Source: a virus. From it: DNA of 20,883 bases. The notes below the pieces were generated by a model. The model was not told the DNA's origin. It saw only the letters and a list, made by a program, of their open reading frames with translations, and did not search any database. Below are positions 4,059-20,883 of this stretch, in pieces. A program made the position numbers and the translations under genes. The DNA is taken from IMG/VR virus record IMGVR_UViG_3300017917_001258, positions 1 to 20,883 of that record; one strand, given 5' to 3'. Every line of letters starts with the position of its first letter. Positions within the stretch are counted from its first letter, which is position 1.

Positions 4059-4108
4059 TATTAATATTCTCGGGGCTACATGCCGCACTCTACAGATTGT
4101 CAAGCCCT

Positions 4109-4134
4109 TTGTCAACAACTTTTTATGGTATACT
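4109..4134 (+). promoter_or_regulatory. Possible extended -10 promoter at gene 55
   Basis: TGGTATACT (4126-4134) reads as an extended -10 (TGnTATACT) with a poor -35 candidate (TTGTCA at 4109, spacer only 14). It lies just 3 bases before the gene 55 start codon, so any transcript from it would be leaderless or begin inside the gene. It may be cryptic; an upstream transcript may supply gene 55. Confidence 0.35.
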
Positions 4135-4137
4135 TGA

Positions 4138-4677
4138 ATGAACAAACCTAGACACTACATTAATAATGAAGATTTCCTTAAGGCGCTCGTAGAGTACAAA
4201 GAGAAGAAAGCCAAAGCTAGAGAAGAAGGAAGGCCTGATCCTTCTATACCAAATTATATCGGTGAGTGCTTCATGAAGATTGCTGAAGGTTTGTCACACA
4301 AGCCAAACTTCATTAACTACCCTCACCGAGAAGACATGATTGGAGACGGTATTGAAAACTGTCTGATGTACTTCGAAAACTTCGATGCCACCAAATCTAA
4401 AAATCCATTTGCATATTTTACACAGGTAATCTACTTCGCATTTCTCCGCAGGATTCAAAAAGAAAAGAAACAACTATATGTCAAGTATAAATCTACCGAA
4501 ATGATTGGTGTACTTGATGAGTTTGAGATGATGGAATTTGAAGATGGGACTAGTAAACAGTTTGAACTTTATGATAACATTGCAGAGTTCATTGAGAACT
4601 ATGAAGAAAGTCGAAAAAACAAAAAGGCAGAAAAGGTAGTTCCAAAAAAAGGTGTTGAAAAATTTATGGAAGAATGA
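4138..4677 (+). CDS. 55: gp55 late-promoter sigma factor
   Basis: The 179-residue product matches T4 gp55 (185 residues), the minimal sigma factor that directs host RNA polymerase to TATAAATA late promoters together with gp33 and the sliding clamp. Conserved features are YINNEDFLKALVEYK near the N-terminus (T4 YVNNKELLQAIIDWK), FMKIAEGLS...NF..Y..REDMIGDGIENCLM near 45-85 (T4 IAEGLS...NF..Y...EMIADGIEA) and NFDATKSKNPFAYFTQVIYFAFLRRIQKEKK near 90-120. The T4 alignment supports the ATG at 4138, although no Shine-Dalgarno is visible. A tail rich in Lys and Glu ends the protein. It acts on the late boxes listed elsewhere in this window. Confidence 0.95.
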   Translation: MNKPRHYINNEDFLKALVEYKEKKAKAREEGRPDPSIPNYIGECFMKIAEGLSHKPNFINYPHREDMIGDGIENCLMYFENFDATKSKNPFAYFTQVIYFAFLRRIQKEKKQLYVKYKSTEMIGVLDEFEMMEFEDGTSKQFELYDNIAEFIENYEESRKNKKAEKVVPKKGVEKFMEE

Positions 4678-12652: not shown

Positions 12653-13228
12653 ATGAATAATAATTTGTACATTAATGAATTGTTTCCTACTGTAGTACTC
12701 TACAAGGATTTTCCTGAGTTGATAAACAAACAGTTGCAAAAAGAAGCACGAGCAATAACCATTAAACATGGCACTAAAGCTTTTCTTTGCCCATGCCTCA
12801 GCACTGTTCGTACTATGACAAATGTTTTAGAAATGCCTGTATTCGCAGGCATCAAACAGGCTATCATAGATACAGTTTCAGTTTACACTGATGTGTTAAA
12901 AATTAATAAAGAAAAATTAATTTTTTTAGACAGTTGGTTAAATTTATATGAACAACACCAATATCAAGACTTACACAATCATCACGATTCCATGATCTCT
13001 GGCGTTTTTTATATAAAAAGTTCAGGCGTTAAAGATTTTATACTTCAGGCTCCTTGGCATTTTCAACAACCAAAAATTCCAGAGTATGAAGAAAATAATC
13101 TTACCAATTGTCATAATGCTGAATATAACAGTGTTGAGGGGCGTGTCATACTCTTCATGAGTCACGCACTACATCGAACACTTCCTGCCACCGAAGAACG
13201 GATTAGTCTGTCTTTTAACATTGGATAA
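12653..13228 (+). CDS. 2OG-Fe(II) oxygenase family protein
   Basis: The 191-residue product matches the phage 2-oxoglutarate/Fe(II) oxygenase family typified by short double-stranded beta-helix proteins. Key parts are LDSWLNLYEQHQYQDLHNHHDSMISGVFYIKSS near residues 92-124, where the HNHHD cluster supplies the metal-binding H-x-D/H, and GRVILFMSHALHRTLPATEERISLSFNIG at the C-terminus, with the distal His and the Arg that binds 2-oxoglutarate. An upstream GTG would add four residues; the ATG at 12653 is preferred. These enzymes are abundant in aquatic T4-like phages; substrates are unknown (protein, nucleic acid or small molecule). Confidence 0.8.
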   Translation: MNNNLYINELFPTVVLYKDFPELINKQLQKEARAITIKHGTKAFLCPCLSTVRTMTNVLEMPVFAGIKQAIIDTVSVYTDVLKINKEKLIFLDSWLNLYEQHQYQDLHNHHDSMISGVFYIKSSGVKDFILQAPWHFQQPKIPEYEENNLTNCHNAEYNSVEGRVILFMSHALHRTLPATEERISLSFNIG

Positions 13229-13232
13229 AATT

Positions 13233-13616
13233 ATGAGTGATCGCAGAAAATTTCTTCGTGGTGTAGGACTTTTCGGTGCCCTGGCGGCCGGCGCAGCCGC
13301 ATCTCGTGCAAACGCTGCACCACCTGTTGTTATCAATAATCATTACACTACTGTTACTAGTGATGAAATTCCAAATGAATATTTGGAAAAACAAATTGAA
13401 TCACAATCTGTGCTGGCTTTAAGGGCAACGTACGGCGAAGAAATGCCGCCCACAAAAATACATGGAACAAAAATACATGGAACAAATGACATGTATGTTA
13501 TAGGTATTACTCCCACTTATAAACCTGGTACAGAAAAACAGGTTGAAGTGAGAATTGTGCCTGGTCCTGACGGTAAACTTTACGTCAAAGAGAATGGCGC
13601 CTGGCGTAAATTGTGA
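13233..13616 (+). CDS. Tat-signal secreted small protein, function unknown
   Basis: The 127-residue product opens with a clear twin-arginine export signal: DRRKFLR (residues 3-9), a hydrophobic Gly/Ala core (10-23) and an ANA cleavage site near 26-28. This predicts folded export across the inner membrane of the infected cell. The mature part is short, with a tandem KIHGT-KIHGT near 77-86 that reflects a 15-bp direct repeat in the DNA, a Pro/Gly region and a C-terminus PDGKLYVKENGAWRKL. It overlaps no recognised family. It lies between the oxygenase and gene 44. The signal-coding bases are GC-rich compared with the rest of the gene, perhaps a trace of host origin. Confidence 0.72.
   Translation: MSDRRKFLRGVGLFGALAAGAAASRANAAPPVVINNHYTTVTSDEIPNEYLEKQIESQSVLALRATYGEEMPPTKIHGTKIHGTNDMYVIGITPTYKPGTEKQVEVRIVPGPDGKLYVKENGAWRKL
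13452..13486 (+). repeat. 15-bp tandem repeat inside the Tat-signal gene
   Basis: ACAAAAATACATGGA occurs twice in a row (13452-13466 and 13467-13481), followed by a partial third copy (ACAAA). It encodes KIHGT twice and keeps the frame. Confidence 0.9.
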
Positions 13617-13648: not shown

Positions 13649-14587
13649 ATGAACGAACAACACATGCTGTGGGTGGAGAAGTATCGCCCTAAAACAGTCG
13701 AAGAATGTATTCTGCCTGATAATATCAAGGCAACTTTTCAAGAATATGTGAATCGCAAGGAGATTCCCAATCTCCTTCTTTCTGGCACCGCTGGTGTCGG
13801 TAAAACTACAATCGCCAAGGCACTATGTAACGAAGTTGGTTGTGATTACATCATCATCAACGGTTCTGATGAGTCTGGTATCGATGTTCTTCGCAACAAG
13901 ATTAAACACTATGCATCATCAGTCAGTTTGTCTGGTGGACGCAAAGTTGTTATCATAGACGAAGCGGACTATCTAAATCCTAATTCCACGCAACCTGCGC
14001 TTCGTGGTGCAATCGAGGAGTTCGCTTCCAATTGCTCTTTCATCTTCACCTGTAACTTCAAGAATCGAATTATTGATCCAATTCATTCTCGTTGCACGGT
14101 TGTTGATTTCAAAGTAAATGGCAACAAAGCCAAACTTGCATCTCAATTCTTTAAACGTGTTGAATGGATTCTAGACCAAGAAAACATCCGATATGAAAAA
14201 GAAGTGGTTGCGGCCATCATCACAAAACACTTTCCAGATAATCGTCGTATTCTGAATGAACTGCAACGGTATTCTGTAAGTGGAGTTATCGACAAGGGCA
14301 TTTTGTCTAATGTCACTGATGTGCAGGTCACTGAGTTAATTAACTCACTAAAGGTCAAAGATTTCGCATCTTGCCGTAAGTGGGTTACAAACAATCTCGA
14401 CAATGATCCATCCAGAATCTTTCGTAAACTTTACGATTCATTGTATGAGAATCTAAAACCTAATTCTGTTCCTCAACTTGTGTTGATTCTTGCGAAGTAT
14501 CAATATCAAGCAGCATTCGTGGCCGACCACGAAATCAATCTTGTGGCTTGTTTGACCGAAATTATGGTGGATTGTGAGTTCAAATAA
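13649..14587 (+). CDS. 44: gp44 clamp loader ATPase subunit
   Basis: The 312-residue product matches T4 gp44 (319), the AAA+ subunit that with gp62 opens and loads the gp45 clamp. It has WVEKYRP (residues 8-14), Walker A GTAGVGKTT (46-54), Walker B VVIIDEADYL (100-109) and the SRC arginine-finger motif (147-149). The end of the ORF overlaps the gene 62 start by one base (TAATG). The start at 13649 follows a GGAG site. In T4 gene 45 directly precedes 44; here three extra genes lie between them. Confidence 0.96.
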   Translation: MNEQHMLWVEKYRPKTVEECILPDNIKATFQEYVNRKEIPNLLLSGTAGVGKTTIAKALCNEVGCDYIIINGSDESGIDVLRNKIKHYASSVSLSGGRKVVIIDEADYLNPNSTQPALRGAIEEFASNCSFIFTCNFKNRIIDPIHSRCTVVDFKVNGNKAKLASQFFKRVEWILDQENIRYEKEVVAAIITKHFPDNRRILNELQRYSVSGVIDKGILSNVTDVQVTELINSLKVKDFASCRKWVTNNLDNDPSRIFRKLYDSLYENLKPNSVPQLVLILAKYQYQAAFVADHEINLVACLTEIMVDCEFK

Positions 14588-18222: not shown

Positions 18223-18298
18223 TGGGGATTCGCCAAGTTGGTAAGGCATCGGATTTTGATTCCGACATTCACAGGTTCGAGTCCTGTATCCCCTGCCA
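18223..18298 (+). tRNA. tRNA-Gln (TTG)
   Basis: A full cloverleaf: acceptor TGGGGAT/ATCCCCT with an unpaired 1-72 position (a weak first pair is normal for tRNA-Gln), D arm GCC...GGC, anticodon stem TCGGA/TCCGA with loop TTTTGAT, T arm ACAGG TTCGAGT CCTGT, discriminator G and encoded CCA. The CCA is also the beginning of the left arm of the following 18-bp stem. Confidence 0.95.
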
Positions 18299-18395
18299 TA
18301 ATGAAGCGCATTGTAGCGACACATAAGCAAGTCGTTAACTACCGTTGGTTACGTATAGAATCGTAAGTGGGTGTAGGCAGTGTGTTTCATTATGG
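18296..18395 (+). repeat. Hairpin unit U0 (isolated copy of the array hairpin)
   Basis: CCATAATGAAGCGCATTG (18296-18313) pairs with CAGTGTGTTTCATTATGG (18378-18395) over all 18 positions, including a few G-T wobbles, around a 64-base loop. Compared with the array near 20000, the sixth pair has swapped T-A to A-T on both arms, a compensatory change. The left arm overlaps the tRNA-Gln CCA end. Confidence 0.88.
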
Positions 18396-18423
18396 TAATA
18401 GCGTCTGTATAAATTACTATCGG

Positions 18424-18431
18424 TATAAATA
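18424..18431 (+). promoter_or_regulatory. T4-type late promoter TATAAATA
   Basis: Exact TATAAATA, 18 bases before the HNH endonuclease start, followed by an AAGGAGA Shine-Dalgarno. A weaker TATAAATT lies just upstream. Confidence 0.8.
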
Positions 18432-19554: not shown

Positions 19555-19651
19555 GCCTCTATAGTTTAATGGTAGAACACCTGTCTTATACACAGTTAAA
19601 TGGCTCCGCGACGGGGGCGTAGTGAAGGTTCGAATCCTTCTAGAGGTACCA
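19555..19651 (+). tRNA. Atypical tRNA, TAT anticodon (Ile, AUA), with an extra hairpin arm
   Basis: Acceptor GCCTCTA/TAGAGGT, D arm GTTT...GAAC, anticodon stem CTGT/ACAG with loop CTTATAC (TAT), T arm GAAGG TTCGAAT CCTTC, discriminator A and encoded CCA. Unusually for a tRNA-Ile, the variable region is about 27 bases and holds a GC-rich hairpin GCTCC/GGGGGC. Total 97 bases. Amino-acid identity is uncertain. Confidence 0.75.
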
Positions 19652-19816: not shown

Positions 19817-19892
19817 GCTCGGTTCGTCTATCGGTTTAGGACGCTAGCCTTTCACGCTGGAAAGACGGGTTCGACTCCCGTACCGAGTACCA
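19817..19892 (+). tRNA. tRNA-Glu (TTC)
   Basis: Acceptor GCTCGGT/ACCGAGT with a G-T first pair, anticodon stem CTAGC/GCTGG with loop CTTTCAC (TTC), T arm ACGGG TTCGACT CCCGT, discriminator A and encoded CCA; 76 bases. The CCA is the start of hairpin unit U1. Confidence 0.93.
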
Positions 19893-20003
19893 TATTGAAG
19901 CACATTTTAGGTTGGGCAACAATTGCAGAGTTGCTATTTGGGAGCAGTAGATTAGGATCGCAACCTGATTGAGTTCTAAGATACAAAGTGTGTTTCAATA
20001 TGG
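19890..20003 (+). repeat. Hairpin unit U1
   Basis: CCATATTGAAGCACATTT (19890-19907) pairs with AAGTGTGTTTCAATATGG (19986-20003) at every position, two as G-T wobbles. The loop contains further helices AGGTTG/CAACCT and GCAAC/GTTGC. Confidence 0.9.
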
Positions 20004-20105
20004 TAAGCCTTAATCCAACTGAGAAACAAAAGATCGTCAGGGTCGCTCCTGGTTAAGATTAAGTAGTTTCAATGAGGTGACTCAAGGCTGGTCTCCGGCG
20101 GGAGG
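20004..20105 (+). repeat. Structured body copy A
   Basis: A 102-base body, matched by copy B at 20390-20491 with 16 differences (about 84% identical). Helices: AGCCTT (20006) / AAGGCT (20084), GAAAC (20023) / GTTTC (20066), CAGG (20038) / CCTG (20048), and GGTCTCC (20090) / GGAGGCC (20101). Confidence 0.85.
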
Positions 20106-20204
20106 CCATATTGAAGCACATTGGGTCATGCCCTGTATAACATTGCGCTAAAACAAAAGACGCTCGGTGGTAAGGTACTCCACAAACAGTGTGTTGAAAT
20201 ATGG
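20106..20204 (+). repeat. Hairpin unit U2
   Basis: CCATATTGAAGCACATTG (20106-20123) pairs with CAGTGTGTTGAAATATGG (20187-20204) except for two adjacent G/A positions, a tandem G-A mismatch. Its right arm instead matches the left arm of U3 perfectly. Confidence 0.85.
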
Positions 20205-20299
20205 TGTGTATCCTAGGTACTGAGGAAGCCTCAGCGGATCTTGTGCATATCGTACAAAAGACATGATCTGGCTTGTTGATGCGATTTCAACCACACCAA
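20205..20299 (+). ncRNA. Structured body between U2 and U3
   Basis: TGGTGTG (20202-20208) pairs with CACACCA (20292-20298), closing the body; inside are CTGAGG/CCTCAG, TTGTG/TACAA and GTTGA/TCAAC hairpins. After the closing helix come A and CCA. Confidence 0.65.
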
Positions 20300-20389
20300 C
20301 CATATTTCAGCATATTCTACCCATCTGTGGCACGGAACGGAGTCGTCACAGAATGGCGAAAAGACCCGTTTGAGTGTGTTGAACTATGG
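20300..20389 (+). repeat. Hairpin unit U3
   Basis: CCATATTTCAGCATATTC (20300-20317) pairs with GAGTGTGTTGAACTATGG (20372-20389) with a single mismatch. The TTCA/TGAA pairs replace TGAA/TTCA of U1, so both arms changed together. Inside the loop TCTGTG/CACAGA forms a further stem. Confidence 0.88.
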
Positions 20390-20491
20390 TAAGCCTTATT
20401 CCAACTGAGGGACAAAAGATCGTCAGAGTCGCGTCTGGTAAAGATCAAGTAGTTCTAACAAGGTGACTCAAGGCTGGTTCCCGGCGGGGAG
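20390..20491 (+). repeat. Structured body copy B
   Basis: Near-duplicate of the body at 20004. The differences fall as compensatory pairs: CAGA (20424) / TCTG (20434) for CAGG/CCTG, GGTTCCC (20476) / GGGAGCC (20487) for GGTCTCC/GGAGGCC, and GGGAC (20409) / GTTCT (20452) for GAAAC/GTTTC. Confidence 0.85.
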
Positions 20492-20569
20492 CCATATTGA
20501 AGCATATTCTACTAGCTGACAATACCGTAACTGGGAGACTAAGGCGTGTTTGAGTGTGTTTCAATATGG
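20492..20569 (+). repeat. Hairpin unit U4
   Basis: CCATATTGAAGCATATTC (20492-20509) pairs with GAGTGTGTTTCAATATGG (20552-20569) at all 18 positions including wobbles; 42-base loop. Confidence 0.9.
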
Positions 20570-20659
20570 TGATGGCACATAATCAACTGCAATTGGTTGG
20601 GCCTAGATGCAGTATGCTCTTTGCAGAGAGTATGCTGTTAGCGCGGATCATGCCCGCCG
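20570..20659 (+). ncRNA. Structured body between U4 and U5
   Basis: The centre holds a long hairpin CAGTATGCTCT / AGAGTATGCTG (11 bp with wobbles). GGGC/GCCC closes around it and a short TGAT/ATCA hairpin precedes it. The sequence differs from bodies A and B. Confidence 0.6.
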
Positions 20660-20759
20660 CCATATTCTAGCGTATTCATGTAGCGAAGAGCATTTGACCA
20701 ATGTTCGTGCATCAGATTTGGTCACTGATGGCATAGTACATGAGTGCGTTAGAATATGG
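20660..20759 (+). repeat. Hairpin unit U5 with internal pseudoknot
   Basis: CCATATTCTAGCGTATTC (20660-20677) pairs with GAGTGCGTTAGAATATGG (20742-20759) at all positions; CTA/TAG replaces GAA/TTC of U1. The stem continues with ATGTA/TACAT to about 23 bp. In the loop, TGACCA/TGGTCA and CATCAG/CTGATG interlock as an H-type pseudoknot. Confidence 0.9.
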
Positions 20760-20859
20760 TTAGACTAGAGGGTTTTCAACAAGGAGAAGTTATTGCGCTC
20801 TGCATGATCACGCCGTAGTGATCCTCTGCATCGTCATCAAATTGTTGCGAATCTAGTCG
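20760..20859 (+). ncRNA. Structured body between U5 and U6
   Basis: GACTAGA (20763-20769) pairs with TCTAGTC (20852-20858), closing the body; inside are CAACAA/TTGTTG and the hairpin GATCAC/GTGATC. After the closing helix come G and CCA. Confidence 0.65.
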
Positions 20860-20883
20860 CCATATTTCATCATATTAAGAAAG
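20860..20883 (+). repeat. Left arm of hairpin unit U6 (cut by window end)
   Basis: CCATATTTCATCATATT (20860-20876) matches the left-arm pattern of units U1-U5. Its partner arm lies outside the window, so the array continues. Confidence 0.8.

Follow-up and report, generated by a model that had tools for sequence, protein, structure and literature searches.

What kind of RNA is encoded by the kilobase of repeated hairpins that follows a tRNA-Glu gene at the end of this phage contig, a single large molecule or a row of separate ones? The window, that is the whole stretch of 20,883 nt that was analysed, comes from a T4-type phage: its major head protein is 74% identical to a Synechococcus phage homologue, and its clamp loader has 63% identity to that of methylophage Melnitz, the nearest isolate by this protein. 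With a probability of about 0.72, the region forms the 3' portion of a phage tRNA operon that links its tRNAs and other small RNAs by excisable connectors, of the type that also makes up the intervening sequence (IVS) of permuted tmRNA.

Layout of the array in the window

The array (19890-20883) consisted of five complete hairpins and the left arm of a sixth, with left and right arms in strict alternation, just as the sequence-only reading had described (Table 1). Its claim that the array is non-coding agreed with the open reading frames, since only two were present, of 51 and 53 aa, both of chance length. Recounting the arm mismatches gave figures identical to its own, both within the units (0, 2, 1, 0, 0) and from each right arm to the next left arm (0, 0, 3, 2, 3). 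That reading had placed the RNA array beside tRNA genes, and in fact H1 starts within the CCA of tRNA-Glu, an overlap it had missed together with a further complete hairpin, H0, which stands directly on the CCA of tRNA-Gln. What follows H0 is a protein gene (HNH endonuclease) and no RNA, which counts against the connector reading.

Table 1. Positions of tRNAs, connector hairpins and X-RNAs in the window.
Feature	Coordinates	Strand	Remarks
tRNA-Gln(UUG)	18223..18298	+	ARAGORN; CCA = first three bases of H0
Connector hairpin H0	18296..18395	+	arms CCATAATGAAGCGCATTGT/GCAGTGTGTTTCATTATGG; fold z -7.2
tRNA-Glu(UUC)	19817..19892	+	ARAGORN; CCA = first three bases of H1
Connector hairpin H1	19890..20003	+	arm mismatches 0
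X-RNA 1	20002..20108	+	107 nt; GGT start; small hairpin and CCA at end
Connector hairpin H2	20106..20204	+	arm mismatches 2
X-RNA 2	20203..20302	+	near-identical homologue in phage L133
Connector hairpin H3	20300..20389	+	arm mismatches 1
X-RNA 3	20388..20494	+	X-RNA 1 paralogue
Connector hairpin H4	20492..20569	+	arm mismatches 0
X-RNA 4	20568..20662	+	basis: sequence, fold
Connector hairpin H5	20660..20759	+	23-bp stem; TTCTA/TAGAA arm variant; arm mismatches 0
X-RNA 5	20758..20862	+	basis: sequence, fold
Sixth connector, left arm only	20860..20877	+	rest lost at contig end (20,883)

The whole array of about 1 kb folded with a z of -8.4 against shuffles, which was reached by none of the 20 shuffles. 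H1, H3, H4 and H5 gave z of -4 to -7, and H2, with its two mismatches, -2.3. The hairpin bodies of the window alone folded no better than shuffles, and for its X-RNAs the gain was slight (z -1.2 to -2.4). The stability of the array is thus mostly located in the connector stems.

Between hairpins of this kind lie either tRNAs or unrelated structured RNAs, here called X-RNAs. The X-RNAs are found again in other phages, where they stand next to other modules. X1-X5 follow tRNA-Glu, a position which fits the placement of rnaC/rnaD (species 1 and 2 stable RNAs) in the tRNA cluster of T4, the sequences being compared by side-by-side reading only. As predicted, X1-X5 would be, like rnaC and rnaD, small non-tRNA RNAs in a T4-type tRNA operon; in T4, however, the RNAs abut directly, with gaps of 1-6 nt and without a connector hairpin.

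Three further observations were made in the window. The tRNA called Ile(UAU) (19555-19651) is 97 nt long with a long variable arm, which is unusual for isoleucine. Near the start of the ORF at 13221-13616, MSDRRKFLRGVGLFGALAAGAAASRANA appears to resemble a twin-arginine (Tat) export signal, which would be unexpected in a T4-type phage. GGTATAAATAATATTG is situated after H0 at about 18410-18425, ahead of the HNH endonuclease gene.

Arm pairing and anchoring on tRNA ends

About 150 phage contigs of IMG/VR contain the same element, which nearly always lies in a tRNA array and has the orientation of the tRNAs. Searching viral contigs with the arm pattern gave 41 stretches first and then at least 120, and the survey set comprised 151 loci (1.4 Mb) with 2099 tRNAs and 339 stems starting on CCA. 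The connector stem has a consensus of 17 bp (CCAUAUUGAARCACAUU / AGUGUGYUUCAAUAUGG), with U.G wobble favoured at pair 16, where it was found in 89 of 130 tRNA-anchored arm pairs. Over the 645 kb of four large contigs, all consensus hairpins but two were confined to tRNA arrays; of the two exceptions, one is a tmRNA spacer and the other a hairpin between a protein gene and tRNA-Gly.

Outside these contigs the element was not met with. Isolated phages showed no similarity to the whole region, to six modules or to the arms alone, the arm-body-arm pattern occurred in 0 of 84,980 bacterial and archaeal species, and no description of such connectors was found in the literature, which was covered in part. 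The cmscan of the window against Rfam, at the gathering threshold and at E<=10, returned only tRNAs and chance matches, so the array, put forward earlier as a candidate new RNA, corresponds to no Rfam family.

That the arms pair as RNA was indicated by compensatory changes. Among 181 unique arm pairs, a set itself found by pairing, there were 246 double-change cells; re-dealing the right arms gave 68 on average and 83 at most. The test was repeated with arms found by sequence alone: at the four free positions the mean number of mismatches was 0.34 within hairpins and 0.95 from right arm to next left arm, and non-consensus pairs were fully complementary in 26 of 58 cases within hairpins versus 8 of 50 between neighbours. 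Across related phages, pairing within the hairpin won over pairing with the neighbour in 54 comparisons, equalled it in 37 and lost in 4. The window alone, with mismatch totals of 3 and 8, offers a weak comparison, and there the right arm of H2 fits the left arm of H3 better than H2's own arms fit each other. The consensus left arm lay on the tRNA strand 100:1, and the right arm 186:5. Strand bias and compensatory changes together require a role at the RNA level, which bears out the earlier claim of an RNA structure rather than a DNA repeat. Concerted evolution of the arms within a genome was rejected, since arm similarity was 0.849 within contigs and 0.858 between them.

Next to a tRNA, the left arm is placed on its very end. 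In 169 cases a tRNA ended no more than 5 nt from the arm start, and in 164 of them its CCA and the arm start coincided. Circularity was avoided by a scan of every CCA-bearing tRNA with no arm sequence imposed, in which stems scoring at least 12 started on the CCA of 140 of 1702 tRNAs, against 4 with the downstream sequence reversed; the 8% is not a general frequency, as the loci had been fetched by the arm pattern. The stem stops exactly at C74, pairing beyond this base being at expectation, and a continuation of the pairing into the upstream tRNA's acceptor stem was therefore rejected. Where CCA was not required in the search, hairpins after tRNAs carried it in 116 of 118 cases and UGG in 115 of 118. 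In hairpins away from tRNAs, CCA has become CUA, UUA or UCA, all of them still able to pair with GG via G.U, and UGG was kept in 152 of 190. The next tRNA started at -1 in 45 cases, so that the terminal GG of the hairpin is its G1 and G2. In others the next tRNA lay at +3 to +16 downstream, with UGG off its 5' end, which counts against the connector reading. In L007/L034, the homologue of H1 joins tRNA-Thr directly to tRNA-Met.

Connectors were unevenly distributed among tRNA isotypes. Counting tRNA-anchored hairpins in the 151 loci, they followed Glu(UUC) in 35 of 87 cases, Lys(UUU) in 26 of 55, Leu in 29 of 150 and Gln(UUG) in 11 of 54, and none was found after Met (0/127), Asp, Ala, Cys, Pro or Trp. 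The dinucleotide at bases 72-73 was rejected as the cause of this bias, which may reflect shared ancestry. Glu, Lys and Gln have UU-N anticodons in common, which are targets of some anticodon nucleases.

Several loci held other elements. L072, L114, L087, L069 and L122 contain more connectors, of 150-210 nt, which start on CCA and have different arms (..TTGTTAGTGTTAT../..ATAACACTAACAA..); those of L114, L087 and L069 share the body start AAAATTCC.GTGATC...GGA.AGTG. A group I intron lies within the tRNA array at L004:13185-13378 (minus strand). At G003:40978-41130 (minus strand), a connector-like hairpin behind a protein gene is followed by TATAAATA, resembling a T4 late promoter, and then by tRNA-Gly, an arrangement that recalls GGTATAAATAATATTG behind H0. 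A late promoter behind hairpins as a general rule was rejected, with 4 of 305.

Relation to permuted tmRNA and proposed maturation

In L048, L106, L111, L127 and L177 the hairpin is the IVS of a permuted tmRNA (RF04321/RF01850). At G004:6263-6337, one of the two exceptions in the large contigs, and in L048, L106, L111 and L127 it was located between ...TTCGA.TCC...CTCCACCA (or GTCCACCA) and the 5' G-run of the coding piece (...GGTTTCGACAGG). The pattern for this permuted layout gave at least 120 viral stretches; 100 unique phage tmRNA IVSs were obtained, 82 of them with a good stem, and a permuted tmRNA was present in 7 of 7 large contigs tested (137-177 kb). No tmRNA was found within the window, which counts against the connector reading. 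At L048:~13700-14300, ARAGORN calls the permuted tmRNA region a tRNA-Asn with an intron of ~420 nt, a miscall that is likely to be an annotation trap in such phages.

IVS and array hairpins share the stem core RAAGCAYAUU/AGURUGCUUY, with U.G frequent at pair 16. Nine IVS bodies matched bodies of array hairpins on the plus strand and none on the minus strand, and six matched inter-hairpin RNAs, all on the plus strand. The body of H0 was 81.7% identical to the IVS of L303 over 60 nt (E 4e-12), and the IVS bodies of L199, L234 and L310 equal array hairpins in L020, L071 and L101; no homology to tmRNA IVS bodies was found for the bodies of H1-H5. Like an IVS, the connectors are hairpin spacers that separate a 3' CCA from a 5' G on one strand. 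The encoded CCA of tRNA-Gln is the start of H0 and that of tRNA-Glu the start of H1, and the right arms end in UGG, which would lie at the 5' ends of the X-RNAs. In contrast to an IVS, none of the window hairpins lies between the CCA of a tmRNA acceptor piece and the 5' G of its coding piece; they join complete tRNAs or X-RNAs instead of two halves of one molecule and are repeated in tandem. The stems are close in form and not identical, which again counts against the connector reading: those of the IVS have a GA bulge before UGG and lack the UAUU/AAUA pairs, four extra bp which replace this bulge in the connectors of the window.

A direct origin of the phage arms from betaproteobacterial tmRNAs was rejected: of 100 genomes of the order, no more than 3 had a clear permuted tmRNA of beta-type, and the bacterial spacers that were read lacked the phage arm consensus. 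The beta-type tmRNAs give a hint of betaproteobacterial hosts. Melnitz encodes a two-piece tmRNA, and two-piece tmRNAs of phages are mostly marine or aquatic (PMC9004378). Permuted tmRNA transcripts are cut by tRNA-processing enzymes, and the mature RNA lacks the spacer (PMC11915505). The IVS of tmRNA must be removed, because the CCA has to be free for aminoacylation and G is the first base of the coding piece. As the same spacer has to go in tmRNA, it is most simply an excisable connector when it stands between tRNAs and X-RNAs.

The hairpins probably mark the sites at which one long transcript is divided into its small RNAs. In such a transcript, produced as one unit, tRNAs and X-RNAs would be strung together by connectors, whose stems would run from C74 of the upstream RNA to the UGG that can be U(-1)G1G2 of the downstream RNA. 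The tRNA-processing enzymes of the host would excise the connector as in two-piece tmRNA, with RNase P cutting at the 5' side of the next RNA, and with the other side cut by RNase III or a similar double-strand cutter, trimmed up to CCA by exonucleases, or both, so that each tRNA or X-RNA would be freed with a mature end. U(-1)G1G2 is a good context for RNase P, which would explain that UGG was kept where CCA had drifted. Stems of 17-23 bp are compatible with RNase III, and because no RNase III gene was found in 15 phage contigs, a host enzyme must be assumed. RNase III stems of bacterial rRNA operons hold the mature RNA inside the loop. The connectors are like them in that a long stem flanks RNAs to be released, and unlike them in that the mature RNAs of the window appear to lie outside, with CCA as the base of the stem. 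The arm sequence is conserved beyond what a stem used only for processing would require, which counts against the connector reading.

Probable exchange of RNA modules and the alternative readings

X-RNAs and bodies occurred in changing surroundings. X1 and X3 are paralogues whose 3' hairpins (GTCTCC/GGAGGC and GTTCCC/GGGAGC) differ by compensated changes, and in another stem AGG/CCT is replaced by AGA/TCT, also compensated. X2 is almost unchanged in L133, where both flanking arms are spelled differently and each pair is self-complementary, which explains the mismatches of H2 and the fit of its right arm to H3. Nearly the same body (about 97-99% identical) has unrelated self-complementary stems in L016/L029 (CCATATTGAAGCACATT) and L020 (CCATTTGTTTTGCTGA, also L055). 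In 144 cross-contig pairs of homologous bodies, the flanks were non-homologous upstream in 112 and downstream in 120, and the module order varied between phages. From these comparisons the arms appear to be places at which small RNA modules are exchanged. Since near-uniform arms stand beside differing neighbours, the modules are probably shuffled between phages by recombination at the arms.

Two X-RNA families were observed in addition. One (L028:~4100-4300, L005 (minus strand, rc 361-485), L044, L064, L090 and L139), absent from Rfam, combines two domains. Its 5' domain is conserved (GAGTAATTAACC...GGAAGTCATGACTCC...GATCCGTGG), and the domain fused to it is tRNA-like, having a T-arm with TTCGA and an extended acceptor stem that contains an AAT bulge. 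The other (GGGTGGTATGTAG...GAGGACTGGGATTCCC...GCCAGCAACACTGGC; L003, L005, L020, L069) also occurs as the body of permuted tmRNA spacers in L202, L299, L306 and L312.

The arms might then be mainly recombination or mobility signals, by which small RNA cassettes of right arm, X-RNA and left arm move from phage to phage, with the stem as a by-product of uniform ends. X2 with its jointly changed arms, the bodies carried by unrelated stems and the equal likeness of arms within and between contigs would all suit this explanation. It is nevertheless unlikely in view of the 100:1 strand bias, the compensatory changes, the exact start at C74 and the restriction of consensus elements in the four large contigs to RNA arrays, where one of the two exceptions is itself a tmRNA IVS.

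It is likewise doubtful that the hairpin bodies are functional small regulatory or counter-defence RNAs on a processing stem of RNase III type, with the tRNAs as bystanders. Some bodies are conserved between phages with differing arms, and the same bodies occur in tmRNA spacers, as this would predict; against it, the 254 unique bodies fall mostly into tiny families, and those of the window lack folds better than shuffles.

The sequence-only reading had proposed a candidate large RNA and named GOLLD and ROOL as known ornate RNAs. In one giant ornate RNA of GOLLD/ROOL type, hairpins and X-RNAs would stay joined in a single architecture. GOLLD and ROOL are also phage RNAs found near tRNA islands (PMC12286853), and the whole 1 kb does fold far below its shuffles. 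They are, however, single large RNAs of fixed architecture, and their Rfam models, run by cmscan as had been proposed, gave no match in the window at the gathering threshold or at E<=10. As the hairpins also stand singly between tRNAs and as spacers in permuted tmRNA genes, the order of modules is not conserved, the RNAs between hairpins recur as units of their own, and flanks are non-homologous in most cross-contig module pairs, this interpretation has become very improbable. Transcription terminators or attenuators, which stem-loops directly 3' of tRNAs could suggest, can practically be dismissed, because the stems are A-T-rich, 17 bp long, with bodies of 40-100 nt and no U-tract, and another RNA gene on the same strand follows at once.

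Under the reading of excisable connectors in a tRNA operon, one element ties together the tRNA arrays of phages, their two-piece tmRNA and the unexplained small RNAs of tRNA operons. The arms provide a simple sequence handle with which phage genomes can be searched for dozens of unknown families of small RNA, and maturation is given a directly testable rule, with a cut after CCA and a cut before GG. The connectors may also explain the movement of permuted tmRNA genes and RNA modules between phages. Tentatively, it could be supposed that these phages run a modular system of RNA cassettes, in which unrelated small RNAs, among them tRNAs, tmRNA halves and X-RNAs, would be enclosed by one standard pair of arms, serving as both exchange point for recombination and signal for excision, the RNAs being matured by the tRNA-processing pathway of the host. 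If so, uncultured T4-type phages would possess a plug-in slot for new small RNAs, perhaps counter-defence RNAs.
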